From a virus, in the IMG/VR virus record IMGVR_UViG_3300033993_002030, positions 1 through 31,777 of that record: 31,777 nt of DNA; one strand, written 5' to 3'. Positions 1 to 24,630 of this stretch are shown one piece after another; position 1 is the first letter of the stretch, and every line of letters starts with the position of its first letter. The notes under the pieces are model-generated. The model was given only the letters and a program-made list of their open reading frames with translations, had not been told where the DNA came from and ran no database searches. Position numbers and translations under genes: made by a program.

Positions 1-246
1 CCACTTCAGTTCCTTGTGCGCTTTGCCCATCTCCATGATGATAGACAATTTCTTGTGGGCCTTGCGGACATGGTCGCAGACCACGCCAAAGGCTCGCTCC
101 TCCACCGCTTGCGCGGCTTGGGCTACGTCTTCCTCGGCTCTCGCGAAGTAATCCATGATGCACGCTTCATGCTGCATGGTTCGGTATTCGAGCCACGGGA
201 TCATCTCGCCTCCGGTGTCGAGGGGTTTGAGTAGTTGTTTGCTCAT
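1..246 (-). CDS. Hypothetical protein, C-terminus cut by window edge
   Basis: An open frame starting MSKQLLKPLDTGGEM runs 82 codons without a stop to the first base of the window, so the C-terminus is missing. It is rich in Ala, Glu and Lys and probably helical (EEDVAQAAQAVEERAF, then a basic HVRKAHKKL stretch); no family is recognised. The ATG lies one base after the stop of the upstream small gene, and a good Shine-Dalgarno (GGAGG in the last codons of that gene) fixes the start. It is the last visible gene of the left minus-strand accessory operon and is probably translationally coupled to its neighbour. Confidence 0.7.
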   Translation of the reverse strand, partial: MSKQLLKPLDTGGEMIPWLEYRTMQHEACIMDYFARAEEDVAQAAQAVEERAFGVVCDHVRKAHKKLSIIMEMGKAHKELKW

Positions 247-247
247 G

Positions 248-382
248 TTAAACCTCCGTGTATGTGACCGAGGCGTTCGCCCCGTATTTGGCTTGCGCCT
301 TTTTCTCGGCTTCATTGTGGCTGCGAGCTTTGATGATCTCGCGCTCGTTGCCTTGTCCGTCGTAAACAATGTAGTGTTTCAT
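248..382 (-). CDS. Small hypothetical protein (44 aa)
   Basis: This short frame encodes MKHYIVYDGQGNEREIIKA followed by SHNEAEKKAQAKYGANASVTYTEV. The pattern of a short beta segment, a basic-acidic helix and a final strand resembles the many small soluble phage proteins of unknown role. An AAAGGAAAC Shine-Dalgarno lies about eight bases before the ATG, just after the TAG stop of the amidoligase gene. The good ribosome site and the tight spacing on both sides support a real gene. It has no recognised motif, and its function is unknown. Confidence 0.65.
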   Translation of the reverse strand: MKHYIVYDGQGNEREIIKARSHNEAEKKAQAKYGANASVTYTEV

Positions 383-397
383 TGGTTTGTTTCCTTT

Positions 398-1693
398 CTA
401 TTGAGTCGCGTTTGCGACTTGGGTTGGCTCATGTTCGATACCAGCGCGGGAATACACGCCGCGCCGGACATAGAACTCGTGCAAGTGCGGGTATGACTTG
501 ACGTTGTTGGTGACGAACTTGAGGAACGGCTGCGGTGTCTCGATGTCCCTGCATCCGTGGTTGGCCGGAGCGCAGAACGCAATCAAGGCATCGTAGAATT
601 CGAGGTTCTTGTAGAACGATTCAGGCTTCAGGGTTCCGCGGAAGATGCGTATCTCGACAGTCTCATCCCGCACGTTGAGCGCAACGTAGCGGTTGGGAGA
701 CAGCTTCTTGCCGTCAGTCAGCTTCTTGCCCATCTCGATGCACGCCCATTGTTTGAGCGCACGACCCGCCGTGGTCTTGACCACGCTTTCGTTGTTAGGG
801 TGATTGATCCAGACCAGCATCTTGCCAAGCTGGAGTTGCGTCAGCGCGGAGCGGCTGGCATGGATGTGCATACCGCAGCGTCCATTCGTCCAGCTTGTCA
901 GCGTGGTGGAAGCCGAGTTGATGAACTCCGACCACTTGCGCTTGTGCACGTCGAGCGAGTCGGGGCGGGTGACAATCTCGAATCCGGCATCGGAGAGCGA
1001 GCCGTCACGCTTGAGCACAACGTAGTCCAAGCCGAGCGAGGTATAGACCCGCCGCGCCTCGTTGCTGTAGTGCACGTTGCCCTTGCACTCGACCTCCAAC
1101 TCGATGCCGTAGAAGAGCGGCCCCTTACCCTCGGACTGTTTGTAGTCCGCCGAGCGGTTGCCGTAGCTCTTTACCGCATACGGATCGTGATATTCTTCCT
1201 CTTCATCGTCGTCGGAGTCGCGATCGTCCCAACAATTTTGGCAGTAGCCGTCTTCGGCGTAGTCGTCGTTGTCGAAGCGATGCCCGCACGATTCACACTC
1301 GAAGGTGTGCTCGTGGAGATACTCGTGGGAATACCAATATCCCTGCCAGCGTTGGCCGTCTCCGTAGAGGTAATACTCTTGATTGCCCTCGCAGAAGCGA
1401 GCCTCGTCGGACAACGCATACTCGTCGTCGTGCATACATACGGCATCGTCAAAGAGGGCGTATCGCTCGTCGTAGAGCAGGACAACGTGCTCGTTGTTGA
1501 GTGCATATTCGCCATCGTGCAACTGGACGATGTCGTCATCGACCAGCGCGAGCTTGCCGTCATGCAGGGTGACGATCTCTACCTCGTCGCGATTGACGAT
1601 TGTGCCGTCATGCAGCGTGACTTGCGTGGACTCTTCGGGAGTCGCGTTTGCGACTTCCTCGGTGGAATACGCAGCGTCTTGTGGGTGTGTCAT
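398..1693 (-). CDS. Predicted amidoligase (COOH-NH2 ligase, glutamine-synthetase-like fold) with repeat and zinc-ribbon N-terminus
   Basis: The C-terminal half (about residues 193-375 of 431) carries amidoligase-family hallmarks: GIELEVE (196-202), a DGS near 230, FEIVTRP, CGMHIHAS (273-280) and TVEIRIFRGT (345-354). Such enzymes use ATP to join a carboxylate to an amine. The N-terminus has five copies of a 15-18 residue unit around (V)xLHDGxYAL (about residues 25-98), then a zinc ribbon with CxxC pairs at 133/136 and 151/154 and a very acidic linker. AGAAAGGA upstream of the ATG supports this start. Palindrome copies fall inside codons 14-19 and 426-431, both read as VANAT. The upstream neighbour is a class II amidotransferase-like protein, a plausible ammonia supplier. 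The family call is good; the substrate is unknown. Confidence 0.75.
   Translation of the reverse strand: MTHPQDAAYSTEEVANATPEESTQVTLHDGTIVNRDEVEIVTLHDGKLALVDDDIVQLHDGEYALNNEHVVLLYDERYALFDDAVCMHDDEYALSDEARFCEGNQEYYLYGDGQRWQGYWYSHEYLHEHTFECESCGHRFDNDDYAEDGYCQNCWDDRDSDDDEEEEYHDPYAVKSYGNRSADYKQSEGKGPLFYGIELEVECKGNVHYSNEARRVYTSLGLDYVVLKRDGSLSDAGFEIVTRPDSLDVHKRKWSEFINSASTTLTSWTNGRCGMHIHASRSALTQLQLGKMLVWINHPNNESVVKTTAGRALKQWACIEMGKKLTDGKKLSPNRYVALNVRDETVEIRIFRGTLKPESFYKNLEFYDALIAFCAPANHGCRDIETPQPFLKFVTNNVKSYPHLHEFYVRRGVYSRAGIEHEPTQVANATQ
403..420. repeat. Palindromic hairpin repeat, copy 1
   Basis: GAGTCGCGTTTGCGACTT forms a 6-7 bp stem around a four-base loop. It overlaps the last codons of the amidoligase gene and lies just before the ribosome site of the next small gene. 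The 18 bases are identical to copy 2 at the other end of the same gene. Confidence 0.85.
1639..1656. repeat. Palindromic hairpin repeat, copy 2
   Basis: GAGTCGCGTTTGCGACTT lies inside the amidoligase gene near its start and is translated as VANAT in the amidoligase frame. Being inside a coding region, it is not a simple intergenic terminator. Confidence 0.85.
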
Positions 1694-1724
1694 TGGGTGT
1701 TGTTCCTTTCTGTGTATGGGGTTA

Positions 1725-2618
1725 TTACTCGTGGGTGAGGTTCATCATGCCGATGGCACGCGCCTCGGACTCGGCGTCCTCCTCATCGAGCAAGTCCATG
1801 AGGAAGTCATACATTTCGGCTGGGTCTTCTTGGAATCCGGCCTCGATGGCTGATCTGGAGAAGCCCCGCCTTTGCAGTTCATCGGCAATCCACTCGTTCT
1901 CCTGCGAGACACCGATGCCCCAGATCGTCGGGTTCTCGGGATCCCAATCGGGAAACGACTCGCGCTCGTTGCCGAGTGACTCCTCGTGTCGCAGCGGCTT
2001 CAATCCACGCGGGTATTGGAAGTCATCGTCATCCCATGCCGAGTTGTAGCTGCCGCGTCCGCTATAGACTGACAAGCGGGGTTGGTAGCCGGAGTTGGAA
2101 TACCAATGGCCGTCCGACTCCCACTTGCCGTCCTCTTCGTTCCAGATCCCGAAGTCGCCGTCCGAACGCAGGAACACGAACTTGCTGCCGCTGATCGCGC
2201 AGCGTCCCAGGAACGAGATGGCTTGATGCTGGTAGAACTCCGGATCGAGTTCGTGCAACGGCTTGAGGACCTTCTCGACATAATGCCAAGTGTCCGACTT
2301 GGTTTCGTCATCCTTGGTGCAGATGGGCAGGACGCCGTTGTGGATCATGGCGAGGTTGTCCGTGATCGAGAACGGATGGCAGTTGTCGGTGTCCTTCTTG
2401 CCGTGCGTGGCAAGACGGAAGTGGATCAACGCCGGACAATCGGCATACGGCTTGAACGCACGCCAGAACTCCTTGAACTTGAAGAAGCCCTTGCCGATGA
2501 CCAGTCCTCCGTTGACCGCAGCGGCGAATCCTGCGCCGTGCGTGTTGTTCTCGAAGCCGTTGCGATAGGCTTCCTTGTCGGGTTTCGTCGATGCGGGTTT
2601 GTATATTGCTAAACACAT
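1725..2618 (-). CDS. Class II glutamine amidotransferase-like protein (N-terminal nucleophile hydrolase)
   Basis: The protein of 297 aa starts MCLAIYKP, placing Cys2 as the expected N-terminal nucleophile after Met removal. HFRLATHG (66-73), DNCHPF (78-83) and MIHNGVL (91-97) match the conserved class II amidotransferase pattern (arginine-bearing strand, N-HP, HNG). Such domains release ammonia from glutamine for a partner synthetase. The open frame extends further upstream, but this ATG has an AAAGGA site about 10 bases before it and exposes the catalytic Cys, so it is preferred. The C-terminal third is acidic and specific to this protein. It lies directly upstream of the amidoligase, suggesting a two-component ligase and ammonia donor. 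Other phage proteins of this type are known, but their substrates are not. Confidence 0.8.
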   Translation of the reverse strand: MCLAIYKPASTKPDKEAYRNGFENNTHGAGFAAAVNGGLVIGKGFFKFKEFWRAFKPYADCPALIHFRLATHGKKDTDNCHPFSITDNLAMIHNGVLPICTKDDETKSDTWHYVEKVLKPLHELDPEFYQHQAISFLGRCAISGSKFVFLRSDGDFGIWNEEDGKWESDGHWYSNSGYQPRLSVYSGRGSYNSAWDDDDFQYPRGLKPLRHEESLGNERESFPDWDPENPTIWGIGVSQENEWIADELQRRGFSRSAIEAGFQEDPAEMYDFLMDLLDEEDAESEARAIGMMNLTHE

Positions 2619-2656
2619 ATTGGTGTTTTCCTTTCGTTGTTTGCTGTTGGTGTTGT

Positions 2657-2674
2657 GAGTCGCGTTTGCGACTC
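2657..2674. repeat. Palindromic hairpin repeat, copy 3 (perfect)
   Basis: GAGTCGCGTTTGCGACTC has a perfect 7-bp stem and a GTTT/AAAC loop. It sits in the leader of the amidotransferase-like gene, about 40 bases before its start codon, next to a second hairpin at 2684-2697. Confidence 0.9.
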
Positions 2675-2683
2675 GTTTGCCTC

Positions 2684-2732
2684 GTCCGTCTTCGGACAAG
2701 CTGCCGCCCTCCACGAAGGAAGGGCGGTGTGC
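2684..2732 (-). promoter_or_regulatory. Two consecutive hairpins in the amidotransferase leader
   Basis: On the transcribed strand a strong GC hairpin (CCGCCCTTCC, loop TTCGT, GGAGGGCGG, one bulge) is followed by GTCCG-AAGA-CGGAC and then by palindrome copy 3. No U-tract follows, so these are better seen as attenuator-like or mRNA-stabilising structures than as a classical terminator. The position between a stop codon and the next ribosome site fits that reading. Confidence 0.5.
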
Positions 2733-2743
2733 TTGTGCGGTTA

Positions 2744-3265
2744 TTACAAAGAGGCGATCAGCTTGTGGCCGTCTTCGGCGTCCTCTTTCCAAGGGCCGCG
2801 CCAGTAGGCGACATGCTTGGCGAACGTGGCGGGGGGATCGTCGCTGGCCGCAACATCGGCGACCATGTCCCGAGCATACTCCTCGGGAATCCTCATGTGT
2901 TCGCGCAAGATGTGGAAACATTCCTCCGGTGTCCGAGCATTGCTTCCTGTCCCGCCGTGATACTCGACGCCGGAGCCGATCTCGGGATCACACCCCGCCA
3001 GCCAGTAAAAGCCGTTGGCCTCGGCGTGCATCGGTTCGCCCGTCTCCGCATCGGAAAGATGCAGCGCGACGAGCGGAGCCAGTTGCGGGAAGGCGGCGAG
3101 GATCTCGTCGTGAATACACCCGCCGCATTGGAAGTCGCCGCGCTTGCGCTGAAACGGCGTGCTGATCTCTCCGGTGACGGAAAAGTATCCGCCTTCGGTT
3201 GTTATCTTGGCGATGAGTTGTCCCTTGTATCCTTCGGGAGCTTTCGCCGTCAGTTTCTTGGTCAT
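2744..3265 (-). CDS. Conserved-looking phage hypothetical protein (173 aa)
   Basis: This soluble protein starts MTKKLTAKAPEGYKGQLIAK, has a CGGCIHDEIL segment near residue 47 that may bind metal, and an LHLSD...MHAEANGFYWLAG block that looks strongly constrained. I believe similar sequences occur in other phages as proteins of unknown function, but I cannot name a family. A GAAAGG ribosome site lies about eight bases before the ATG. It is the gene directly upstream of the amidotransferase-like gene and may belong to the same pathway. No signal peptide or membrane segment is seen. Confidence 0.75.
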   Translation of the reverse strand: MTKKLTAKAPEGYKGQLIAKITTEGGYFSVTGEISTPFQRKRGDFQCGGCIHDEILAAFPQLAPLVALHLSDAETGEPMHAEANGFYWLAGCDPEIGSGVEYHGGTGSNARTPEECFHILREHMRIPEEYARDMVADVAASDDPPATFAKHVAYWRGPWKEDAEDGHKLIASL

Positions 3266-3311
3266 CTGATTACCTTTCTTTCCGGCCCTGATTGGCGGGG
3301 CCGATTCACCC

Positions 3312-3329
3312 GAGTCGCATTTGCGACAC
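3312..3329. repeat. Palindromic hairpin repeat, copy 4 (diverged)
   Basis: GAGTCGCATTTGCGACAC keeps a 5-bp GTCGC/GCGAC stem but has changes in the loop and at one end. It lies in the leader of the 173-aa gene. Confidence 0.8.
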
Positions 3330-3338
3330 GCTGCACCC

Positions 3339-3359
3339 CCGAACGGATGGGACGTTCGG
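3339..3359 (-). promoter_or_regulatory. Perfect 7-bp hairpin paired with palindrome copy 4
   Basis: CCGAACG and CGTTCGG flank a seven-base loop on the transcribed strand, just before palindrome copy 4. As at two other leaders, an unrelated hairpin directly precedes the palindrome. No U-tract follows. Confidence 0.5.
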
Positions 3360-3380
3360 AGGTGAGTGCGTGTGGCGTTA

Positions 3381-3479
3381 TTACTTGGTGACCTCGATCA
3401 AGATCCAGACGGCGAGGAAGGCGAGGATCGCCAGCTTGCAGAGGATCGCGTCGAGGATGTCGTCGGTGGGCGGTTTCAT
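3381..3479 (-). CDS. Micro-protein with one membrane segment (32 aa)
   Basis: The frame reads MKPPTDDILDAILCKLAIL then AFLAVWILIEVTK, a single hydrophobic helix long enough to span a membrane after a short polar N-terminus. Its ATG overlaps the TGA of the preceding small gene (ATGA), so translation is probably coupled. The function is unknown; small phage membrane proteins of this kind can be holin-like, superinfection-related or regulatory, but nothing here decides. Confidence 0.6.
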   Translation of the reverse strand: MKPPTDDILDAILCKLAILAFLAVWILIEVTK

Positions 3480-3592
3480 TGCTCGTCGCACCAGACTTCC
3501 AGTGAACCGCCGAGGTTCCAGATACGCTCGCCGAGCGAACTGATCTTCAGCGACAGGATATGAAGTGAGCGGATGAGATTACGCTTCAACAT
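3476..3592 (-). CDS. Micro-protein (38 aa), unknown
   Basis: The frame reads MLKRNLIRSLHILSLKISS then LGERIWNLGGSLEVWCDEQ, an amphipathic, basic-then-acidic peptide. It starts inside the end of the upstream 60-aa gene and its stop overlaps the start of the next gene by ATGA. The double overlap is the main evidence for expression. No family is recognised. Confidence 0.5.
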   Translation of the reverse strand: MLKRNLIRSLHILSLKISSLGERIWNLGGSLEVWCDEQ

Positions 3593-3761
3593 AGACGCCT
3601 CCCTTGTCGGATGTTGCGGGACGATAGAACTCGAAGACACATTCCTCGGAGAGAGGAAGGGGAGCTTCGACCTTTCTTCCGGCGACCTTCACGATATTAC
3701 GCGAGGGCGACCAGATGACTTCGACAATGCGCTTTTGAGGCGCGGCTTTTTCGATGGTCAT
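3579..3761 (-). CDS. Small hypothetical protein (60 aa)
   Basis: The product MTIEKAAPQKRIVEVIW and onward is probably a small beta-rich domain (alternating VEVIWSP, VKVAG, CVFEFYRP). An in-frame start lies 17 codons further upstream, but this would overlap the preceding gene and add a segment reading through the stop-junction motif, so the internal ATG is preferred. The stop overlaps the next small gene. The function is unknown. Confidence 0.6.
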   Translation of the reverse strand: MTIEKAAPQKRIVEVIWSPSRNIVKVAGRKVEAPLPLSEECVFEFYRPATSDKGGVYVEA

Positions 3762-3783
3762 GGTGTGTGGGTTTGCGGGGTTA

Positions 3784-3990
3784 TTACACGCCAACCGGAA
3801 GGAGGTTGGCAAGACTGAACGTCATCGGTTGCACGGCGCGGGGCCGCTCGATGAGGTTCACAGTTGTCCGCTCGGGGCGGGTGAACTCCAAGCCGCCATA
3901 CTTGGCAGCGTGCAATTCCTCGCGGGTGAGCGTGTCGATAGCACGATGCGTCATCACAACGTGCAGTTTCCTGACTTGTTCTCTTTTCAT
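3784..3990 (-). CDS. Hypothetical protein (68 aa)
   Basis: The protein begins MKREQVRKLHVVMTHRAID and includes TREELHAAKYGGLEFTRPE, suggesting a short helical domain followed by an extended tail. An upstream in-frame start would read through palindrome copy 5, so the internal ATG after AGAGAAAC is chosen, although that ribosome site is weak. The stop is a TAATAAC junction motif. The function is unknown. Confidence 0.6.
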   Translation of the reverse strand: MKREQVRKLHVVMTHRAIDTLTREELHAAKYGGLEFTRPERTTVNLIERPRAVQPMTFSLANLLPVGV

Positions 3991-4007
3991 TTTGTTTCTC
4001 TGGTTGA

Positions 4008-4025
4008 GAGTCGCGTTTGCGACTC
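4008..4025. repeat. Palindromic hairpin repeat, copy 5 (perfect)
   Basis: GAGTCGCGTTTGCGACTC is identical to copy 3 and lies 17 bases upstream of the start codon of the 68-aa gene. A CTTGCC-6-GGCAAG hairpin at 4028-4045 directly precedes it in the transcript. Confidence 0.9.
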
Positions 4026-4027
4026 GC

Positions 4028-4045
4028 CTTGCCATTGTGGGCAAG
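4028..4045 (-). promoter_or_regulatory. Perfect 6-bp hairpin paired with palindrome copy 5
   Basis: CTTGCC and GGCAAG flank a six-base loop two bases from palindrome copy 5. This is the third leader with a palindrome directly preceded by an unrelated hairpin. Confidence 0.5.
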
Positions 4046-4097
4046 CGACAACGCAAGCGGATGGAACACTTGCGCTGGTTGGCTACTCACAATCCAT

Positions 4098-4144
4098 GCA
4101 GCGTGATGCAGGGTTCAGGGTTCATGGTTCATGGTTCACGCTGC
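4098..4144. repeat. Heptamer repeats enclosed by a 9-bp inverted repeat
   Basis: GCAGCGTGA (4098-4106) and TCACGCTGC (4136-4144) are perfect inverted arms. Between them a heptamer related to GGGTTCA/TGGTTCA is repeated about four times in tandem. The block sits in the roughly 170-bp non-coding gap upstream of the 68-aa gene and abuts palindrome copy 6. Confidence 0.8.
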
Positions 4145-4162
4145 AAGTCGCGTTTGCGACTC
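4145..4162. repeat. Palindromic hairpin repeat, copy 6
   Basis: AAGTCGCGTTTGCGACTC has a 6-bp stem extended by a mismatch. It lies two bases beyond the stop codon of the 133-aa gene and directly abuts the heptamer-repeat block. Confidence 0.85.
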
Positions 4163-4164
4163 GG

Positions 4165-4566
4165 TTACTTGCCAAGGGCCAGCGAGTAGATGCGGCGAGC
4201 GATCGCGGACAATTCCGCTTTGCTATACTTCTTCGAGAGCGCGGCGAACTCTGCTTGCGCTTTCTTCTGGATGTCCTGCGAAGCGCCGGATTTTTTCTGC
4301 GGACGGCGGACGATGCCGAACGACTCGAACGCCCGATGAATGTCCTGCTTCGTGAACTTGTTTGCTCGCAGAGTCGCGGCAATTTCCTCCACGTTCATGG
4401 CTTCGCGATTCTCGCGGATGAACGCTTTCAGTTGGTCACGCTTCGACTTCGCGCAATTTTCGAGGATGCCGATTTCGACAATCTCGCGAGCGATTGCATC
4501 ATTGATGCTGTCGGTCGTGTTGGCGATTTCGTAGTTGATGGTCATGCTGATGTTGGTCTTTTTCAT
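4165..4566 (-). CDS. Hypothetical helical protein (133 aa), first gene of the accessory operon
   Basis: The protein is mainly helical and charged, with a central segment around residues 57-84 (MNVEEIAATLRANKFTKQD and following) that resembles a small helix-turn-helix-type domain, and a basic C-terminal helix pair (QKKAQAEFAALSKKYSKAE). This makes nucleic-acid binding possible but not shown. An alternative start is Met8. It is the most upstream gene of the minus-strand accessory operon and faces away from the TerS-like gene, so it may act as the operon's regulator. No family is recognised. Confidence 0.65.
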   Translation of the reverse strand: MKKTNISMTINYEIANTTDSINDAIAREIVEIGILENCAKSKRDQLKAFIRENREAMNVEEIAATLRANKFTKQDIHRAFESFGIVRRPQKKSGASQDIQKKAQAEFAALSKKYSKAELSAIARRIYSLALGK

Positions 4567-4584
4567 TTTGCTTTGCTTTCTTGT

Positions 4585-4602
4585 GAGTCTTGTTTGCGAC
4601 TC
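4585..4602. repeat. Palindromic hairpin repeat, copy 7 (decayed)
   Basis: GAGTCTTGTTTGCGACTC keeps a 5-bp GAGTC/GACTC stem; two stem bases are changed. It lies in the leader of the 133-aa gene and is the rightmost copy. Confidence 0.75.
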
Positions 4603-4696
4603 ATTGGTTGATGGATGCAGAGGGGAAAACTCTTTCTCCTCGCTCCATTAATAAGTGACCAGCAGCGCGTTTTACTCTGTTATTGTGGGAGGAATT
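4603..4696. promoter_or_regulatory. Divergent intergenic region between the accessory operon and the TerS-like gene
   Basis: This gap separates genes facing away from each other, so it should hold promoters for both directions. It contains an imperfect inverted repeat (GAGGGGAAAA/TTTCTCCTC type, about 4620-4642). I could not fix convincing -35/-10 boxes. GGGAGGA at its end is the ribosome site of the TerS-like gene. Confidence 0.4.
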
Positions 4697-5218
4697 GTGC
4701 GATTATTAAGGATGGGAAAACCCTCTCTTCCGGTTGACTGGGACGTTGTCAAAGGTCTTTACTTGCAAGGAGTCTCTGTTCCTACGCTTTCGCAACGCTT
4801 CGGGATCAACGCAAATACCTTGCGCGCAAAGGCTTCCAAGAAAGGATGGAACGCGATTGTAGGAACAGAGAAGGAACGCAAGGAGCAACTAACAGAGAAA
4901 AGTATAGCAGTCGCAAGGGACATTTGGGCAGAGAGAAGAGAGGCGATCAGAGAGAACATACACACCATTGGAAGCAGGATGACTGCTTATGCTTCGCAAC
5001 TACCTGAAGACCAACTGCTTGCCAAGGCTGATAAGGTAAAGATAGCGACAGAGATAGCAGGAAAGATTGTAGGGCTCGACAGACAAGAGGACAAGAATGT
5101 TGTAAACATCGCATTGTTAGGGAGTTACACCGATTCGGGGTCAACGCTGAAAGATATACAAGTTGACACAATAGAGGGCGATTACTCTGTCGGACACACA
5201 GATTCCGAACCCTTGTGA
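4697..5218 (+). CDS. Small terminase-like DNA-binding protein (TerS)
   Basis: Near the N-terminus is a homeodomain-like helix-turn-helix, VDWDVVKGLYLQGVSVPTL then SQRFGINANTLRAKASKKGW, of the W...G.s...la.rfGi...T...ra...gW type typical of phage small terminases. A long helical oligomerisation-type region follows (EKERKEQLTEKSIAVARDI...). TerS binds the packaging site and presents DNA to TerL. A GTG start four bases after GGGAGG is chosen; the ATG five codons later (MGKPSLPV) is a good alternative. Two oddities are that it is about 15 kb from terL and that its composition is AT-richer than most of the window. It could instead be another HTH regulator. Confidence 0.6.
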   Translation: MRLLRMGKPSLPVDWDVVKGLYLQGVSVPTLSQRFGINANTLRAKASKKGWNAIVGTEKERKEQLTEKSIAVARDIWAERREAIRENIHTIGSRMTAYASQLPEDQLLAKADKVKIATEIAGKIVGLDRQEDKNVVNIALLGSYTDSGSTLKDIQVDTIEGDYSVGHTDSEPL

Positions 5219-5568
5219 CACCACCACCCACCCCACCAGAGTAGAGGGCCAGGCCCCAACTCGCCCCTATATCTATCATTATCATGGGCTGTAAATTTTT
5301 TCGCCCAAAATGGAATTATTAACTTTTCGAAGGGGAGCCGGGTCGGACGGAACCCCCTCGATGCGCTAGAAGAGGGCGGCAAGGCACTTCAGGAAACGAC
5401 GCCACCGGGAAGCAGTCACGACAGCCTTCCGATCGCACCGCTCGAAGAAACCGAGACCGCCATAGGGTCCATAGACCAGGCCGAGATCATTCGATCGATA
5501 CATAAGAGTTCACCCCCTTTCATAGGCCCACAAGGAAGCACACATCGGGCCAAGTGCTATATTAACAA
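5219..5568 (+). other. Gene-poor stretch with a startless open frame
   Basis: No gene with a normal start is seen. The reading frame of the TerS-like gene stays open after its TGA until a TAA at about 5669, roughly 150 codons, with codon-like composition (few T in first positions, G/C-rich third positions) but no ATG or GTG until near the end. It may be a decayed gene or chance. The tRNA-like elements downstream lie in the same open stretch, so its distal end is unlikely to be coding. Confidence 0.35.
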
Positions 5569-5637
5569 CGCAGGAAAGGCTGGTGCCCCGACGGGTCTCA
5601 TAAGCCTGTCGTCCGAGTTCAATCCTCGGTCCTGCAA
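5569..5637 (+). tRNA. tRNA-Met (anticodon CAT), short D-arm
   Basis: A cloverleaf can be drawn: acceptor GCAGGA/TCCTGC; a reduced D-arm GGC-TGGT-GCC; anticodon stem CGGGT/GCCTG with loop CTCATAA (anticodon CAT at 5599-5601, U33 and A37 present); and a perfect T-arm CCGAG-TTCAATC-CTCGG. The total is about 69 bases, shorter than usual because of the D-arm. Bases 1 and 72 are C and A, the mismatch typical of bacterial initiator tRNAs, although the anticodon stem lacks the full three G-C pairs. No CCA is encoded. The anticodon and T-arms are convincing; initiator versus elongator identity is uncertain. Confidence 0.6.
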
Positions 5638-5640
5638 AAT

Positions 5641-5711
5641 GATGGGGGTGCATGGCAGCGGCCTCTAAAGCCGAAGGTGCTGCTTTACCGGGGATCACCC
5701 GGACCTCATCC
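5641..5711 (+). ncRNA. tRNA-like structure with a CTA anticodon-like loop
   Basis: GATGGGG and CCTCATC form a 7-bp closing stem (one G-U). Inside lie GCATGGCAGC, a short D-arm-like unit; CGGC-CTCTAAA-GCCG, an anticodon-like hairpin that would read UAG; a long variable region AAGGTGCTGCTTT; and CCGG-GGATCAC-CCGG at the T-arm position. The T-loop lacks the usual TTC, and an alternative fold pairs GCAGC with GCTGC, so this may be a degenerate tRNA or another structured RNA. It directly follows the tRNA-Met. Confidence 0.3.
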
Positions 5712-5718
5712 CACCTTT

Positions 5719-5937
5719 ATGAAAGCTACCCTGGAGTTCAACCTACCCCAAGACGACGAGGCCCTCACCGACGCCCGGCAGGGGTCCGATTGGAAGTGGG
5801 CGGTCGATGACCTCTTCAACTACCTCCGATCCGAGACCAAGCACGCCGACCACTCGGCCGAGGAATATGCGATCTTCGATAAGGTCCGCGAGAAGCTCGC
5901 CGAGATCCTCGAAGAGCGGGATCTGAGGGTCTGGTAA
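5719..5937 (+). CDS. Small conserved phage protein (72 aa)
   Basis: The sequence MKATLEFNLPQDDEALTDA and onward, with WKWAVDDLFNYLRSETKHAD, follows a pattern familiar from many tailed phages: a short strand, an acidic stretch and a tryptophan-bearing amphipathic helix. The molecular role of this type is unknown. The internal ATG is chosen because homologous-looking proteins begin MKATLEFNLP; the longer upstream start would overlap the tRNA-like element. Its stop overlaps the next start (TAATG), indicating coupling. Confidence 0.8.
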   Translation: MKATLEFNLPQDDEALTDARQGSDWKWAVDDLFNYLRSETKHADHSAEEYAIFDKVREKLAEILEERDLRVW

Positions 5938-6086
5938 TGTCCGGCTGGCTCATCGCGGCGACCGGCGTGGCCTACGCTTGGGTTGCGATTGAGATGGCGT
6001 TATCTGGTAAGTGGCCGCTGGCGATCGTCTGGGCCGGATATGCTTTCGCCCAGATCGGGCTATATATCGTCAGCCGGCAGGGCTGA
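5937..6086 (+). CDS. Small membrane protein (49 aa), two hydrophobic segments
   Basis: The frame reads MSGWLIAATGVAYAWVAIE, then a short GKWPL turn, then AIVWAGYAFAQIGLYIVSR, giving two likely transmembrane helices joined by a short loop. Proteins with this MSGWxIAxTGxxY...GxWPxAxVxxGYA pattern recur next to the MKATLEFNLP-type protein in phages; their role is unknown. Start and stop overlap the neighbour by TAATG. It is the last plus-strand gene before the repeat-rich non-coding region. Confidence 0.75.
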   Translation: MSGWLIAATGVAYAWVAIEMALSGKWPLAIVWAGYAFAQIGLYIVSRQG

Positions 6087-6100
6087 AAGCTCGATTTCGA

Positions 6101-6411
6101 GGGAACTTCCCACCAAGTCCCCTAGGAGTTCCCTAGGAAGTTCCCACAGTTAAGTCGCTGATTTTCAGTATACTTACACCGAAAGGGAACTTGGGAACTT
6201 CCCCTATACTTTTTCTTTTAAGAAAAGTATATAGGAGGGGACGCCCGTCCCCCCGCGGAGGCGATGTATACTCCCCGCGGGGAGGGCTCTTCCCCCCTTT
6301 CCGAGTTCCCAAGTTCCCATCGGGTCACAACCTGTTGTCCGACAGAGGTTTAACTGTGGGAACTCCCCCCTGGAACTTCCGAGGACGGGGAACTTCCCAT
6401 ACCTAGTTCCC
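6101..6411. repeat. Iteron cluster GGGAACTT(CCC), probable origin or operator array
   Basis: About twelve copies of GGGAACTT or its complement lie here, at 6101, 6127, 6138, 6185, 6193, 6303, 6311, 6358, 6372, 6388 and 6404, plus a variant near 6115. Four copies extend to the palindrome GGGAACTTCCC or a one-base variant. A 15-bp perfect inverted repeat AGTTCCCACAGTTAA (6139-6153) / TTAACTGTGGGAACT (6350-6364) brackets the middle. The region is non-coding and lies between convergent genes, next to the replication operon. Such arrays typically bind a replication initiator or a dimeric regulator. Confidence 0.75.
6204..6234. terminator. A/T-rich hairpin between convergent genes, likely bidirectional terminator
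   Basis: TATACTTTT and AAAAGTATA form a stem extendable to about 12 bp with one bulge. The T-rich and A-rich arms give a U-rich 3' side in both directions, and it lies between the ends of convergent transcription units. It is embedded in the iteron region, so it could also be an easily melted origin element. Confidence 0.5.
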
Positions 6412-6489
6412 TTAGTAAACATAACCGAATCTCACATTCCTCTGTAGCGTGCACCTTGAGCCTTGAAGCCGAACCTTTCGACTTCATCG

Positions 6490-6507
6490 AACAGTCGATC
6501 GACTGTT
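6490..6507. promoter_or_regulatory. Perfect 18-bp palindrome
   Basis: AACAGTCGATCGACTGTT is its own reverse complement and is enclosed by CTTCA/TGAAG arms. It may be an operator or part of the hairpin-rich end of the replication operon. No binding protein can be assigned. Confidence 0.45.
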
Positions 6508-6529
6508 AAAAGTGAAGATCTTTGAGGTG

Positions 6530-6544
6530 CCGAGGAATCCTCGG
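6530..6544 (-). terminator. Hairpin just after the deaminase gene
   Basis: CCGAGGATTCCTCGG (minus strand) forms a perfect 7-bp stem starting about 11 bases after the deaminase stop codon. The following sequence has no clean U-run, so terminator function is plausible but not certain. Confidence 0.45.
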
Positions 6545-6554
6545 TAGCTCGCGA

Positions 6555-7091
6555 CTAGATCCACCGGACCACGCAGCCCGCTTCATGGAACATGGTGCGT
6601 GCGGCAGAGAAGCTCTCCTCCCATCGGGGGACCGAGTGCTCCGGGCAGTAGACCTCTTTGATGCCTGCTTGGACGATAGCAGCCGCGCAATGTGCACAGG
6701 GCTGGTATGGGTAGACGAAGATCGAATGGCCCTGGAGGGGCTCCTTGGCCGCGAGGATGGCATTCATCTCCGCGTGGAGGGTGTAGAGGAGTCGGGTCGG
6801 TCGGTCGGCCAATCGGTCGACCTTGTCCTCGACCCCGCGGGCGAACCCATTGAAGCCGACCGAGGCGATCGATCGGTCTGGCCGGACGATGACCGCGCCG
6901 ACTTGGCTACTAGGGTCCTTGGACCATGTGGCAACGTGCGAGGCTAAGTTAATAAACCGCTCGGTCCATTTGGCGTTCATAGTTTTGAGGCGGCGGTGGC
7001 AGGACTCGACACCCGCTCTTGTTACATATTCGTGTGTTATTTTGTAACGCTCCGCTATCCGGCCGCGTGTCCATCCACGCCGCACCGCCAT
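6555..7091 (-). CDS. dCMP deaminase-like zinc enzyme with N-terminal HTH-like extension
   Basis: From MNAKWTERF onward (141 aa) this matches the deoxycytidylate deaminase family: HAEMNAIL supplies the zinc His and catalytic Glu, and PCAHC the two zinc Cys. The reaction, dCMP to dUMP, feeds dTTP synthesis. A start directly after the primase stop (TAA, two bases, ATG) is chosen; it adds 37 residues, MAVRRGWTRGRIAERYKIT and on, that look like a helix-turn-helix. The alternative start at 6980 gives the bare enzyme but has no Shine-Dalgarno. A hairpin follows the TAG stop. Confidence 0.75.
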   Translation of the reverse strand: MAVRRGWTRGRIAERYKITHEYVTRAGVESCHRRLKTMNAKWTERFINLASHVATWSKDPSSQVGAVIVRPDRSIASVGFNGFARGVEDKVDRLADRPTRLLYTLHAEMNAILAAKEPLQGHSIFVYPYQPCAHCAAAIVQAGIKEVYCPEHSVPRWEESFSAARTMFHEAGCVVRWI

Positions 7092-7093
7092 AT

Positions 7094-9439
7094 TTAATAA
7101 GGATCGTTGTCCACCTCGACCGTCTCCGGCGTCGGCCGGGTCAGCCGGTATTTGTTCAGCTTGGCCGCTCCGCACCTTTTCTTGATAATCTCGATGTTCG
7201 GGTCTTGGCGGGAGACAAGCTGACTGAGTCGTGTTGAGAGAGTCCGCACCGGCCAATCGCGGATAATCAGGGTGTTGTCGAAGGTGTCGTTAAGCGCCTG
7301 GAGGAATTCGACGGCGGTGCCCTCCCAGACATCGGTGGCGCTATCGACACGCCGCCACCATGCGTTGATGAGGTCGCGCAATTCCGCGTGCTTCCCGCCG
7401 GCATCAATCTTGTCCCGCACTTCTTGGGCGATGATCCCGCGGACAATGTAGCGGTTGGCCGCGTCGATATATTTGGTGGGCACCTCCCAAGCCTTCAGCC
7501 AAGCGAGGAGGGCGGGGAGTTCGACCTCCACGTCCTTGAGTTCCTCGACGATCGGCCCTTCCTCGTAGGTCTTGAGGGCCAAGGCGATGATCTTGTCTTC
7601 GTTCGAGATATCGAGGGCGGGGACCGCTTTGATTGAAACCGGATCATCGTTGGCTGCGATGACGACTCTCCCGCGCCATTCGACCATGATCGGTGTCAGG
7701 TATTTCTCGTGGTATTTGTGCTTCCCGTGGGCCACGAGCTTCTTCACGTAGCTCGCGTAGCGTTGAAGGGCTAACTCAGACTCGGCGGCACGGGAGTCAT
7801 CGATGATGGCGAGCGGGGACTGGAAGAGATCGGCGTTGAAGCCATTGCCTTCACCTGAGACGACCGAGGAAAGGTCGGCGTAGCCGCCCATCGCCGGGGC
7901 GAGGAGGCGTTCGAGCAGGAAGGTCTTAAAGCAGTGGACAGGCCCAACCAAGATCATGGCTTGCCCCATGCAGAGTTTCCCTTGTTCCGCGGACTCGTAG
8001 AACCGTTTGAACCAAAACAGGAAGGTGTCCTTGTAGTCGGAGTGGGCGAAGACGTTGTCGAGGATGGCCGCATAGCGCGGAAAACCGACGCCCCAAGCTC
8101 CGGCGGTCTCAGCCGCGGGCATGATCTTCACGTTCTTGGCAGTGTTTAAGTATTTCTTACCACCTTCAAACCAGAGTTCGTTCGGGTTGTAGAGGGACGG
8201 GCCGGCACCGTCGACCCGGCGCTCTTTGCAGATCGTCTTCTTTGCGCGGTCCATCGGCGACATCGCCGCCCCCTTGGGGGCTCGGTCGGAGATGTTCCGG
8301 CATTTGAGGACGCTTGTGAGCATGGCCACCATCTCATAACGCCAGATCCCATCGTCCCCGCGCAGGAAGAAAGTTTTCCCGTCGTAGTAGATGTCGTCAT
8401 ACTGTCCACTCTTCTCTGCGGAAGTGGACGGTTTGGAGGAGTTATCCGATGATTCGTTGCCGGGATCTGTCGTTATCTGACAGTTCGTTTCATTTGACTC
8501 CTCCGAAATGTTCTCTTGAGACCTTTCCGCGGAATCGCCTGCAACCTTTCCGGCGTCCGGATTGAAGTAGATAAGCTGCTGCGGCTTGCCCGTATCACGG
8601 CGCATACACCCAGGAACTCGGGTCAGGCGCACCGCGGACATGGCGGCGGGGTCCGCACCGAGCGGGACCACCAAGTCGGCGATCTCGCTGGCGCGAGCCA
8701 AGTAGCCCTCGCGGTCTTTCTGGCCAACGCGCACGAGAGCGTGAGCGGACTTCGAGCCCGAGGTAGTGACGGCGACGATTGGAAGATCGAGCTTGGTGAG
8801 GACACGGAGCCAGAGTTCCATCTCGACCGAATCGGATTCGATGAGGAGGTATTCGTAAGCGACTAAGTTCTCCTCGGCCCGCTGTGACTTCTTACCAAGC
8901 CGCGGAATGGCGAGGAACTTCCCGTTGACCGGATTGACCATGATCCACGCACCCTCGGTGTTCTTGGTGATCGCGTTATCGACCAAGAGGTCGGGCATCG
9001 TCTCGTTCCAGACGAGCTTCCCCTGGGACTGCTGGTCGGTGAAAATAATGTTCGCCTGCTTTGGGTAGAGTCGGCGGAGAAACTCGGACGCGGTGATGTC
9101 GGCGACCGCGACAGGCGAGGACTGGAGGAAATCTTCCACCGGAAGCGGGCCTTCCGCGGTCAGGGCCTTGAGCTTCTCGGGATCAAACGCCCGTTTGAGA
9201 GAGACACGGGCCTTGGGCTCGATCAGCCCCTCGACCTCGGCGCGGACCTTGGAGACCGTGTCGGCGATCTCGCGGGGTTGGGGTGGGCGCTCAAGGTAGT
9301 GGGTGATCCACTGGTCGATGAATTGGTCATCGTAAGAGTTAGCAACCAGCGCGTGCGCTGCGCCATACATCCAACTATGGCATCCTTGGCCGGAGGCTGG
9401 GCATGGGTTTATTCCGAGTTCTTCAGGTGTGGGGTTCAT
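7094..9439 (-). CDS. Primase-helicase (archaeo-eukaryotic-type primase plus SF3-like helicase)
   Basis: The 781-residue protein has an N-terminal region with EYLLIESDS (196-204) and TTSGSKSAHALV (225-236), consistent with the acidic and SxH motifs of AEP-type primases, then a Ser/Asn/Glu-rich linker (about 305-345). A C-terminal ATPase follows, with Walker A GPVHCFKT (499-506), Walker B LAIIDD (543-548) and a VVIAANDDP sensor segment. Such proteins prime and unwind the phage replication fork. The Walker A lacks the usual GKS/T glycine, having FKT. The start follows TAATAACGCCCTA with no obvious Shine-Dalgarno. It is followed by the deaminase and preceded by the polymerase. Confidence 0.8.
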   Translation of the reverse strand: MNPTPEELGINPCPASGQGCHSWMYGAAHALVANSYDDQFIDQWITHYLERPPQPREIADTVSKVRAEVEGLIEPKARVSLKRAFDPEKLKALTAEGPLPVEDFLQSSPVAVADITASEFLRRLYPKQANIIFTDQQSQGKLVWNETMPDLLVDNAITKNTEGAWIMVNPVNGKFLAIPRLGKKSQRAEENLVAYEYLLIESDSVEMELWLRVLTKLDLPIVAVTTSGSKSAHALVRVGQKDREGYLARASEIADLVVPLGADPAAMSAVRLTRVPGCMRRDTGKPQQLIYFNPDAGKVAGDSAERSQENISEESNETNCQITTDPGNESSDNSSKPSTSAEKSGQYDDIYYDGKTFFLRGDDGIWRYEMVAMLTSVLKCRNISDRAPKGAAMSPMDRAKKTICKERRVDGAGPSLYNPNELWFEGGKKYLNTAKNVKIMPAAETAGAWGVGFPRYAAILDNVFAHSDYKDTFLFWFKRFYESAEQGKLCMGQAMILVGPVHCFKTFLLERLLAPAMGGYADLSSVVSGEGNGFNADLFQSPLAIIDDSRAAESELALQRYASYVKKLVAHGKHKYHEKYLTPIMVEWRGRVVIAANDDPVSIKAVPALDISNEDKIIALALKTYEEGPIVEELKDVEVELPALLAWLKAWEVPTKYIDAANRYIVRGIIAQEVRDKIDAGGKHAELRDLINAWWRRVDSATDVWEGTAVEFLQALNDTFDNTLIIRDWPVRTLSTRLSQLVSRQDPNIEIIKKRCGAAKLNKYRLTRPTPETVEVDNDPY

Positions 9440-9449
9440 TAGGGCGTTA

Positions 9450-10826
9450 TTACTTGGTGTATTGTTTAGAGATGATGGCTTCGGCTCCGAGGGGGAGGTC
9501 TGAACACCAGGAAGGTGGGGTCGACATGATCTTCTCGACGGCTTGGCGATGGGCTTGCGCGTCGGATTCGTCCACCAGCAAAACTACTTCGTCGTGGACT
9601 CTTAGCAAAATTTCATAACCCGCGTCCTCCAGCGCCATGACGCGATCCATAAAAACGTCACGAGCGAACGCTTGCGTGGCATTTTCCGCGAGTAGGCCCC
9701 CGTAGAGTTTGACCTCCATCATTTTGCCGAGACGGGGCAGGAGTCCGGTGATCTCGCCGTTGTGGCGCTTGATCTGGCGGTAGACGAGTTCGCGGCCGGA
9801 GGGTAGGGGGATGGTCAGTTCGCGGTCATTCGGGTCGGTGGAGATCCGCAGCGCCCGGTCGAGCTTCTTCCACAGCGCGATGATCTTCGGGCTGGCCTCG
9901 CGATACGACTGCACAATAGATTGCGCTTCGGTGAAACTAATGTCGAGTCCGGCCAGCATCTTCGCGACCACGACGAACTTCGCGGGTCCGCAGCCATAGC
10001 CGAGACCCAGGACACGGGCCTTGGCGAGAAAGCGCATCTTCGGATCCACTTCCTTGAGCGGTCGCGGATCGTTGTAGCCCATCGTCGCACGAGCGTGCGC
10101 TTCGTAGATATCGACGCCGCTGGCGATCAGTTTCAGGAGATCGGTGTCCTTGGCGAGGTAGGGCAGGCAGCGTGCTTCGATCTGGGCAAGGTCACAGATG
10201 ACGAGCGTCTTGCCTTCCGGAGCTTCGATGAGCTTGCGGATATCGACGCCGGCAACTTCACCACGCGGGATGTTTTGGCAATTCCAGCCGCCACCGCCCG
10301 AGTCACGCCCGGTCGTTGCTCCGAAGAACTTCAGTTCATAAGGCATACGCCCATCGGGGCGGGTGCGAGCGATCATTGTGGTCACCGTGTTGAGGTGTTT
10401 ATTCGCTTTGCGGTAATCCCTGACCGCCCGCACCCAAGGAAATTTGTCGGAGAACTCAGCTTCCCATGCCGCGCCTTCGGGATCCTTCTCGGCAAAAGAC
10501 TTGGGAGCCCGGATACCTTCCTTCTCGCACTGGTCGCGGATCGCTTGCAGCGAGAGCGGGGGATACTCGCCACCGATCCACGGGAGGAGGGCCTCGGCAC
10601 GGCGCTTCTCGGTGATTAGTTTATCCCGCGCCTCGATGAGCCGATCCATGTTGACTGGCACTCCGCGCATTCCCATCTGGCGCGTCATCGCCGAGATCCG
10701 CCATTCGGTGTCCGGCATCTTCTCGGCATATTGCTGCCAGAGCATGAAGGTCGCTTTGGTATCTTGCAGCGCGTAGCGGGCGACTTCTTTCTTGAAGTCG
10801 TTGGTCATGTAAGGGCTCTTAGGCAT
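9450..10826 (-). CDS. Family A DNA polymerase, polymerase domain (exonuclease part encoded separately)
   Basis: Motifs in order are ATTGRDSGGGGWNCQNIP (about 170-187), motif A VICDLAQIEAR (209-219, catalytic Asp212), an O-helix-like AKARVLGLGYGCG and motif C VHDEVV near the C-terminus. This polymerises DNA for phage replication. At 458 aa it lacks most of the usual N-terminal exonuclease, yet begins with KEVARYALQDTKATF, the YxxxD exonuclease motif III. Motifs I and II sit in the separate gene at 11512-12000. The ATG overlaps the stop of the preceding 55-aa gene. The next gene is the primase-helicase. Confidence 0.9.
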   Translation of the reverse strand: MPKSPYMTNDFKKEVARYALQDTKATFMLWQQYAEKMPDTEWRISAMTRQMGMRGVPVNMDRLIEARDKLITEKRRAEALLPWIGGEYPPLSLQAIRDQCEKEGIRAPKSFAEKDPEGAAWEAEFSDKFPWVRAVRDYRKANKHLNTVTTMIARTRPDGRMPYELKFFGATTGRDSGGGGWNCQNIPRGEVAGVDIRKLIEAPEGKTLVICDLAQIEARCLPYLAKDTDLLKLIASGVDIYEAHARATMGYNDPRPLKEVDPKMRFLAKARVLGLGYGCGPAKFVVVAKMLAGLDISFTEAQSIVQSYREASPKIIALWKKLDRALRISTDPNDRELTIPLPSGRELVYRQIKRHNGEITGLLPRLGKMMEVKLYGGLLAENATQAFARDVFMDRVMALEDAGYEILLRVHDEVVLLVDESDAQAHRQAVEKIMSTPPSWCSDLPLGAEAIISKQYTK

Positions 10827-10986
10827 CGGGCTTCTTCAATACAAAGGGTCTTGGTAGCAGGATCGGCCGCTGTCCCGCCTTCCGGCTGGTCGTCTTCCGG
10901 CGGTAGCCGATCAGGGCCAGGTCGTCGCCCGACTTCGCGATGATCGGAAGCAGGCGACCTTGTTTGATGAGTTTCTCGATGTTCAT
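10819..10986 (-). CDS. Small basic protein (55 aa) inserted between exonuclease and polymerase genes
   Basis: The product MNIEKLIKQGRLLPIIAKS followed by GDDLALIGYRRKTTSRKAG is small and basic, with a strand-turn-strand look. Its start overlaps the stop of the 115-aa gene by ATGA, and its stop overlaps the polymerase start, so all three are probably translated as a coupled chain. No family is recognised; the basic character would allow nucleic-acid contact. Confidence 0.65.
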   Translation of the reverse strand: MNIEKLIKQGRLLPIIAKSGDDLALIGYRRKTTSRKAGQRPILLPRPFVLKKPDA

Positions 10987-11330
10987 TCCGCGGCAAGCTC
11001 CTTCAAAATCTTGAGGCACTGGTTGATCTGCATCCCATCGATAACTCGGCAGGATGAGATCCGGTTTGGTTTGAACGAGTTGCCAGAACTCGACTCTTCT
11101 TCTATTTCGAGCAACTGGATTAAACATTGTGTCGTCACGCGGAACCTCGCGACCTTGTGTTGGAGAACGTCTTCCCGCTCCGCGCTCATCCCAAGGAGCC
11201 GGGCCTGTTCCAAGCACTCGGCTTGAGCGGCATCTCGCTGATCCTCAAACTCGGCCAGCGCGTCGAAGACATTGGTCTTGCCCTGCCTCCACCGTTCGAT
11301 GGCTTCTCGTGTGTGGGGATGATCCTTCAT
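10983..11330 (-). CDS. Hypothetical coiled-coil-like protein (115 aa)
   Basis: Starting MKDHPHTREAIERWRQGKT, the protein has a long helical region (DALAEFEDQRDAAQAECLE, then EREDVLQHKVARFRVTTQC) with heptad-like spacing. The ATG overlaps the stop of the preceding broken gene (ATGA). It lies in the insert that separates exonuclease and polymerase parts, so an accessory role at the polymerase is possible but not shown. Confidence 0.65.
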   Translation of the reverse strand: MKDHPHTREAIERWRQGKTNVFDALAEFEDQRDAAQAECLEQARLLGMSAEREDVLQHKVARFRVTTQCLIQLLEIEEESSSGNSFKPNRISSCRVIDGMQINQCLKILKELAAE

Positions 11331-11454
11331 CGTCTGACAAATGTTTGCCCGCCCAGCCACATCGCGTTGAGATGCTCGTGGGAGTAGTCCGGTTTCCAGA
11401 AGAAAGCCGCACGGCAGTGGGTTTTGCGGTCTTCCTCGAACGTGACTTAGCCAT
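11327..11454 (-). pseudogene. Small gene apparently broken by a one-base frameshift
   Basis: The start MAKSR and the end FEEDRKTHCRAAFFWKPDY then SHEHLNAMWLGGQTFVRR look like one natural 42-aa protein, but they lie in different frames; the 128-bp span is one base short of a multiple of three near CGTTCG. The ATG overlaps the stop of the 27-aa gene, and the TGA overlaps the next ATG, exactly where an intact gene would sit. It is a true frameshift or a sequencing error. Confidence 0.45.
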
Positions 11455-11530
11455 CGTTCTCGTGACCGAATTCTTCGGGTGTGCGCCATCCGGAGATGGC
11501 TTGGAATACTTTTAAGAGTCCTTGGTCCAT
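11447..11530 (-). CDS. Micro-protein (27 aa) overlapping the exonuclease end
   Basis: The frame MDQGLLKVFQAISGWRTPEE plus FGHENDG starts inside the last codons of the exonuclease gene and ends in a TAA that overlaps the next start. Evidence is only the overlap pattern and protein-like composition. No function can be given. Confidence 0.4.
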   Translation of the reverse strand: MDQGLLKVFQAISGWRTPEEFGHENDG

Positions 11531-12000
11531 TTCATTCCTTTCATGTTGTCTCGGGTCGACTTACTCATCTCGATCCCGAGGAGATGTTTGGCCGCTTCTT
11601 TGAGGGAGCGGGGGTAGCTTAAAAAACTGGCGAGGTCAGCCGTATCGAAGACGAACCGCGGAGTTACGAAGTGTGTAATGATGCCTTTCTCGACAAGCGC
11701 CTCGTAGAGCGTCAGATCGAAGGCCGCGTTGTGCATGATCCAGTCCCGTCGATGACATTGAACCCAGGGCGCATCTGCGGGTTGACCGACGAAACAAGTC
11801 CCGTCGTCGAAATACATGGCGACCATGTAGATGTCGGTTTCGCGGGCATACTTCCAAGCGCCCATCGTGGTGACCGAGATGTCCTTGTCGTAGTAGGACT
11901 CGAAGTCGATCGCGACAGAGGGATGCCGGGGGAGGACTGGTCGGCGCTCCGCCCTCCCAGACGGTTGGTTTATTTCAGTGGTCTCCCCCGGCAAAGTCAT
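11512..12000 (-). CDS. 3'-5' exonuclease fragment of the family A DNA polymerase (motifs I and II)
   Basis: VAIDFESYYD (Asp32, Glu34) is DEDD motif I, and MHNAAFD (Asn91-Asp95) is motif II. FDTADLASFLSYPRSLKEA then AKHLLGIEMSK is the usual segment between motifs II and III in PolA-type exonucleases. Motif III (YxxxD) is absent; it is found at residues 18-22 of the polymerase gene about 0.7 kb downstream. A proofreading site would therefore need both polypeptides. The start ATG overlaps the previous stop (ATGA); a longer upstream start is disfavoured because of that coupling. Confidence 0.8.
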   Translation of the reverse strand: MTLPGETTEINQPSGRAERRPVLPRHPSVAIDFESYYDKDISVTTMGAWKYARETDIYMVAMYFDDGTCFVGQPADAPWVQCHRRDWIMHNAAFDLTLYEALVEKGIITHFVTPRFVFDTADLASFLSYPRSLKEAAKHLLGIEMSKSTRDNMKGMKWTKDS

Positions 12001-14554: not shown

Positions 14555-14571
14555 AATTATTGATGGTGTTA

Positions 14572-17908: not shown

Positions 17909-17921
17909 TATGGTGTTATTA

Positions 17922-18110
17922 CTACAGCCCGAAGAATTTACGCAACGCAGTGCGAATGACCGCGCTCATTGAGCGCCCCGAACTCTCCGACTCAGCTTTA
18001 AGCCGGTCTTCGAGTTCGGGGTCGCTGGCGAATGAGCGGATCAGCTTCGGGTTGCGAAGGTTAGCTATCTTCTCGGTCAATGGAGTCTCGTAGTTCGTCA
18101 CGAGAATCAC
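17922..18110 (-). CDS. Ribbon-helix-helix protein (62 aa)
   Basis: The C-terminal half, SFASDPELEDRLKAESESS then GRSMSAVIRTALRKFFGL, fits a CopG/Arc ribbon-helix-helix: a strand, helix A, a GRSMS turn and helix B. It would bind DNA as a dimer. The start is GTG, fixed by AAGGAG five bases upstream, and overlaps the end of the preceding gene by about 50 bp. Its TAG stop is followed directly by TAATAAC. Confidence 0.7.
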   Translation of the reverse strand: MILVTNYETPLTEKIANLRNPKLIRSFASDPELEDRLKAESESSGRSMSAVIRTALRKFFGL

Positions 18111-24610: not shown

Positions 24611-24630
24611 GGAGGGATAATAACCCCACA

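Follow-up and report, generated by a model that had tools for sequence, protein, structure and literature searches.

The minus strand of the phage sequence considered here contains two adjacent genes (398-2618), encoding a putative amidoligase and a class II glutamine amidotransferase (GAT)-like protein, whose pairing is almost obligatory in viral records and which, in the group to which this phage belongs, move as a unit. The pair is best explained, with a probability of about 0.58, as a two-protein, glutamine-dependent amide-forming enzyme that is encoded in an accessory/early region of the phage genome and that would amidate a carboxylate of the host or the phage. The interpretation reached in an earlier note on this DNA is broadly correct and of a kind described before. 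What is new here is the gain or loss of the whole pair, or its swap for a second type of pair, at one site.

The sequence, referred to as the window, corresponds to the entire IMG/VR record IMGVR_UViG_3300033993_002030, namely, 31,777 bases. Since end repeats are absent and phages related through their DNA polymerase reach 74 kb, the window probably covers roughly one half of the genome of a phage. As the earlier note had described, both open reading frames are present, adjacent and co-directional. The order on the minus strand is a gene encoding a 173-aa protein (2744-3265; phrog_17696, function unknown), the GAT gene (1725-2618), the amidoligase gene (398-1693) and then small genes, with the GAT gene being transcribed before the amidoligase gene and separated from it by 31 bp. 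The same strand encodes a primase (7094-9439), DNA polymerase A (9450-10826), a helicase (15333-17033) and an integrase-like protein (18685-19911), while terminase and tail genes are found on the plus strand. A near-identity DNA search of annotated phages with positions 1-12000 of the window yielded no match, nor did an Rfam search. Elsewhere in the window, an ORF near the primase gene (6555-7256) encodes a cytidine/deoxycytidylate deaminase-like protein (PF00383, 3.7e-20) and positions 21976-23244 encode a protein containing the Major tropism determinant N-terminal domain (PF18454, 3.4e-11). The window ORFs that were scanned did not reveal a reverse transcriptase.

The amidoligase gene (398-1693, minus strand) encodes a protein of 431 aa that contains each of the motifs previously noted, i.e., GIELEVE, CGMHIHAS and TVEIRIFRGT. 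Across 54 aligned relatives, E198, E200, D230, S232, E239, H276, E347 and R349 are invariant, such that the ExE, DxS, H and ExR motif residues are intact, with this invariance describing the family itself rather than a residue-by-residue match to the metal and nucleotide ligands of glutamine synthetase. The assignment to the amidoligase family made in the earlier note held only by an indirect route. Pfam PF12224 (Amidoligase_2) did not match the window protein, although it matched 39 of the 54 relatives (best 2.4e-12). PHROG searches gave a match at 1.5e-20, with PHROGs 16683 and 22302 both matching the protein, as did two PHROGs annotated as 'amidoligase enzyme' (1e-4 and 8e-4), and tblastn revealed relatives with values down to 8e-27. 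Scanning viral contigs with the window amidoligase returned nothing, as was also the case with 5-row alignments.

The remaining support came from structure prediction. In the AlphaFold2 model (mean pLDDT 78.5), most of the catalytic part scored above 90. The predicted core (aa 185-416) resembled YbdK (Z 12.7), 1tt4, the Salmonella homologue of YbdK (Z 12.9), glutamine synthetases (Z about 11.9) and plant glutamate-cysteine ligase (Z 11.8), and of the named viral proteins retrieved by Foldseek, many are annotated as amidoligases. The glutamine synthetase fold was detectable by structure only; when solved structures were searched by sequence, the amidoligase profile mainly retrieved zinc-finger and LIM domains. 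Based on relatives, PHROGs and predicted fold, 398-1693 can be assigned as encoding a glutamine-synthetase-fold amidoligase, with the catalytic domain comprising aa 189-416 (446-1129).

Two further regions of the predicted amidoligase bear on what the enzyme might recognize. A zinc-ribbon-like Cys4 motif (C133, C136, C151 and C154; 1232-1297) gave weak LIM-like matches, and in the three Cys columns counted, Cys is found in 40-46 of the 54 relatives. Closer to the N-terminus (about aa 24-116; 1346-1624) lies an acidic region of short, LHDGxYAL-like repeats, modeled with low confidence, with such repeats also being recognized by eye in L229 and L004. The zinc ribbon and repeats probably serve to recognize a macromolecular target. 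It is possible, albeit doubtful, that these elements dock a protein substrate and that the pair modifies proteins in the course of host takeover, anti-defense or phage protein maturation, rather than the cell surface. The conservation of the zinc-ribbon Cys residues, the acidic repeats in the window, L229 and L004, the inclusion of the related Pup ligase PafA in the Foldseek list and the strand shared with the replication genes would all suit such a role. Against this, neither a tag protein nor a target gene was identified, and since peptidoglycan amidation of the MurT/GatD type is likewise cytosolic, location does not discriminate between a protein and a surface target. This alternative concerns the target only and is compatible with glutamine-dependent amidation chemistry.

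The GAT gene (1725-2618, minus strand; ATG at 2618) encodes a protein of 297 aa that begins with Met-Cys2 and contains HFRLATHG, NCHPF and HNG, again as the earlier note had listed. Its predicted catalytic domain spans aa 1-181 (2076-2618) and includes Cys2, R68, T71, H81-P82, H93-N94-G95 and D109. Among 66 GATs, C2 is kept in 65, His81-Pro82 is conserved, and H66, R68, T71, H93-N94-G95 and D109 are invariant. As most of these loci were gathered using the pattern HFRxATHG, part of the invariance within that stretch follows from the selection itself; Cys2, HNG and Asp109 lie outside the pattern. Here too, the proposed type II GATase membership stood through relatives and fold and not through direct Pfam assignment, with GATase_6 scoring 21.1 bits against the window protein, under the 27-bit cut-off, and GATase_4 matching 42 of the 66 relatives. 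The protein is matched by phrog_25883 (4.9e-19) and has tblastn relatives with values down to 8e-31; a viral-contig scan using the window GAT alone returned one locus. On these grounds, together with the predicted fold, 1725-2618 can be assigned as encoding a class II glutaminase-type protein.

That predicted fold (mean pLDDT 82.1; catalytic part mostly above 90) raised a question of chemistry. The core (aa 2-181) resembled GlmS (Z 15.4 and 15.2), EgtC (Z 14.7) and PurF (Z 13.8). The values for GlmS and EgtC amount to a tie, such that fold does not separate the glutaminase of an amidotransferase from a gamma-glutamyl hydrolase of the EgtC type. In ergothioneine biosynthesis, EgtA, a glutamine-synthetase-fold gamma-glutamyl ligase, and EgtC, a GAT-fold Ntn hydrolase, act in one pathway. 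By analogy, the window amidoligase could join the gamma-carboxyl of glutamate to an amine and the GAT-like protein could later remove the gamma-glutamyl group, as does EgtC, with no ammonia being donated. YbdK and glutamate-cysteine ligase, the best fold neighbors of the amidoligase, are in line with this scheme, given that YbdK/GCS or EgtA relatives add gamma-glutamyl groups to amines. Moreover, genes encoding gamma-glutamyl cyclotransferase-like proteins adjoin the pair in eight loci, according to visual inspection of the sequence, and are also present in phages phiM6 and StenR_269, while the GAT of PSA-HP1 has been grouped with degradation genes (PMC5498523). The EgtC/GlmS fold tie and the cyclotransferase genes near some pairs make this a serious rival. 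Still, when solved structures were searched by sequence, the GAT profile matched GlmS (1.4e-10) and PurF (1ao0; 1.2e-8), yet no EgtC chain at E <= 0.1; the HFRxATHG/HPF/HNG pattern is GlmS-like; and the window ORFs scanned did not include a gamma-glutamyl cyclotransferase. Gamma-glutamyl addition and removal is considered less probable than amide formation using ammonia from glutamine, but is a live alternative.

Whether the two genes belong together was addressed by scanning viral contigs for the DNA motif of the GAT alone, ignoring the amidoligase. This revealed at least 119 stretches, of which at least 116 encode a GAT according to profile. Among the matches listed, an amidoligase was found in the fetched flank at 104 of 116 GAT loci. 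In all 104 listed pairs that were read, the two genes share a strand, with the amidoligase gene coming first in 91 and the GAT gene in 13, and with fewer than 100 bases separating the two in 87. The 12 listed loci seemingly without an amidoligase were mostly cut by the flank, and 11 of them contain one in the whole record. Considering whole records, an amidoligase is present in 115 of the 116 listed viral GAT records; with this very strong co-occurrence and the profile similarity found through relatives, neither of the findings that would have spoken against the earlier note was obtained. Pairing of the two genes is, accordingly, almost obligatory in viral records. In bacterial genome contigs, mainly from Bacteroidales and Bifidobacterium, 34 of 37 GATs are likewise paired with an amidoligase. 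Over 42 loci, pairwise distances between amidoligases correlated with those between GATs (r 0.50; none of 2000 permutations was as high), as would be expected of co-inherited genes.

Adjacency in a single genome is, by itself, weak evidence of joint action, and the two could be unrelated accessory genes that happen to adjoin. In light of the 115 of 116 listed viral GAT records and the 104 of 104 read pairs found on one strand, together with the exchange of whole pairs described below, such a coincidence is highly improbable. Pairing thus supports joint action of the GAT and the amidoligase. A fusion of the two genes was sought and none was found, and this was counted against the preferred explanation, in which any channel between the proteins would be hypothetical. 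Annotated phages carrying the pair, or an amidoligase with a GAT nearby, include Methylophilales, Mycobacterium, Acinetobacter, Stenotrophomonas, Sinorhizobium, Rhizobium and Christensenellales phages; such pairs are widely carried by phages. In three loci (L071, L115 and L117), two amidoligases flank one GAT or two tandem pairs are present.

Comparison with phages related through their DNA polymerase revealed the pair to be exchanged as a whole. In L216, which is closely related to the window phage (96% identity in DNA polymerase and 87% in primase), flanks that are 95-96% identical to those of the window enclose a different small gene and a far-diverged amidoligase-GAT pair in place of the 173-aa protein, GAT and amidoligase genes. 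The order of the two genes in this pair is reversed relative to the window, and BLASTP detected no significant similarity between the window and L216 amidoligases; the amidoligases of the window type (type 1) and the L216 type (type 2), and likewise their GATs, are related weakly by profiles. Type 1 is represented by the pair in L229 and type 2 by those in L216, L217, L227, L230 and L232, whereas neither gene was found in six polymerase relatives of 60-70 kb using profiles of either type. In another close relative, L225, homologous flanks are retained and the slot of the pair (L225 7840-10721) is occupied by a gp88-family gene (PF17338, 3.5e-49) and genes of unknown function. In no polymerase relative was one gene of the pair present alone. 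As the pair is of type 1, of type 2 or not found in these relatives, with one gene never occurring by itself, the amidoligase and GAT genes move as a unit in this group, consistent with the accessory character ascribed to them earlier. Such whole-pair exchange implies joint action of the two proteins, with different pair types being able to fit one slot; the two genes very likely work as one unit.

Outside the polymerase group, the closest relatives of the pair were found in two records (G001 and G002), both with the GAT gene first, as in the window. Here, the GATs are 62% (over 178 aa) and 46% (over 272 aa) identical to that of the window, respectively, and the amidoligases 43% (over 288 aa) and 38% (over 383 aa). 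No further window gene was matched in the 19-kb surroundings of these pairs.

The exchanged block is bordered by repeats. The palindrome GAGTCGCAAACGCGACTC occurs in seven copies in the window (up to 2 mismatches; 0.07 expected by chance), each found on the minus strand at a gene boundary within 403-4602. The copy at 403-420 marks the left border of the block exchanged in L216, that at 1639-1656 lies at the start of the amidoligase gene, within the ORF, that at 2657-2674 is upstream of the GAT gene, and a variant at 3312-3329 is close to the right border; the copies at 4008-4025, 4145-4162 and 4585-4602 are found at gene boundaries in the same cluster. While the left edge of the block starts at a palindrome, at the right edge identity between the window and L216 continues about 50 bp beyond the palindrome, ending where the first exchanged gene begins. 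L216 also contains seven copies. At corresponding places, the palindrome reads AGTCCGTTAACGGACT in L225, TGTCCGGAATTCCGGACA in L217, TTGTTCGCATCCGAACAA in L229, TTGTCCGATCACCGGACAA in both L227 and L232, and TTGTCGGAATTCCGACAA in L230, with three to eight copies per phage in the window and these seven relatives. Copies largely agree within one genome; between most phages, the sequence differs and symmetry and position are kept. Either a factor that differs between phages and recognizes its own sequence or the spread of repeats would fit this pattern, and the palindromes may be sites for a regulator, hairpins formed in RNA or linkers for recombination. A comparable case is offered by cluster K mycobacteriophages, which contain start-associated sequences with inverted repeats (PMC3203893). 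A separate gene-end context, GTAATAACNNCAC, consisting of a double stop (TAATAA) followed by CC-rich bases, was found at eight places (up to 1 mismatch; 0.11 expected), namely, 1716-1728, 2735-2747, 3372-3384, 3775-3787, 14563-14575, 15656-15668, 17910-17922 and 24617-24629; similar repeats are found in L225 and L217.

The two-gene module is already described, in mycobacteriophage Marvin (gp105/gp106) and in the Methylophilales phages MEP401 and MEP402, as the small form of phiEco32/RIO-1-type cassettes. The Marvin and MEP401/MEP402 genes are likewise adjacent and co-directional, and encode proteins with the same motifs that are about 25-39% identical to those of the window. They differ in that the amidoligase gene, rather than the GAT gene, comes first, and in that the window amidoligase has acidic repeats near its N-terminus and is missed by Pfam. 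The cassettes of phiEco32, RIO-1, PSA-HP1, LUZ24-like phages, phiM6 and StenR_269 also combine, within an early accessory block, a PF12224-type amidoligase with a class II GAT, and add genes encoding ATP-grasp, COOH-NH2 ligase or gamma-glutamyl cyclotransferase proteins. The scanned window ORFs contained none of these three; the window being probably a fragment, they could lie elsewhere. In cluster S mycobacteriophage records (e.g., JF704100 and MH727553), the amidoligase and its GAT neighbor both bear the annotation 'glutamine amidotransferase domain protein', which for the amidoligase is probably a mislabel.

Ammonia transfer is the usual partner logic of class II GATs. Folds and conserved residues support a glutaminase and an ATP-dependent amide-forming enzyme, with the GAT probably releasing ammonia from glutamine and the amidoligase probably building an amide bond using ATP; that the one feeds the other is plausible. 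In the proposed mechanism, Cys2 of the GAT, N-terminal following Met removal, would hydrolyze glutamine to glutamate and ammonia, the amidoligase would spend ATP to convert a carboxylate into an acyl phosphate, and the ammonia, passed within what may be a physical complex, would attack the acyl phosphate to yield the amide. In GlmS, PurF and AsnB, glutaminase and acceptor sites are found in one chain, a difference from the window pair that was counted against this explanation. GatD belongs to the class I GATs and MurT is built on a Mur ligase fold, such that MurT/GatD is a functional analogy only. That system amidates peptidoglycan through a two-protein glutaminase and ATP-dependent ligase (PMC3267633).

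As for the target, carboxylates of peptidoglycan precursors or other surface components are the leading, if tentative, class, with amidation leading to a change in the cell surface and superinfection exclusion; a protein target comes next, at somewhat lower probability. Modification of the cell surface against superinfection is a proposal of Iyer (2009) that is repeated in PMC10580990 and PMC5498523, both of which propose a cell wall change against superinfection for the peptidoglycan modification cassettes of the phiEco32/RIO-1 type. No experimental test of the product of an amidoligase-GAT pair was found in the literature searched.

It may further be speculated that the pair is an exchangeable, diversifying unit. 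The swaps would then suggest that selection favors variety in product or target, e.g., surface or immunity states that compete with one another, and the bordering palindromes would be phage-specific regulator sites or recombination linkers. Closely related phages with a type 1 pair, a type 2 pair or no pair offer a clean comparison. Should the product be a surface or peptidoglycan amide, the host envelope would be altered by the phage itself, and this alteration would play a part in superinfection exclusion.
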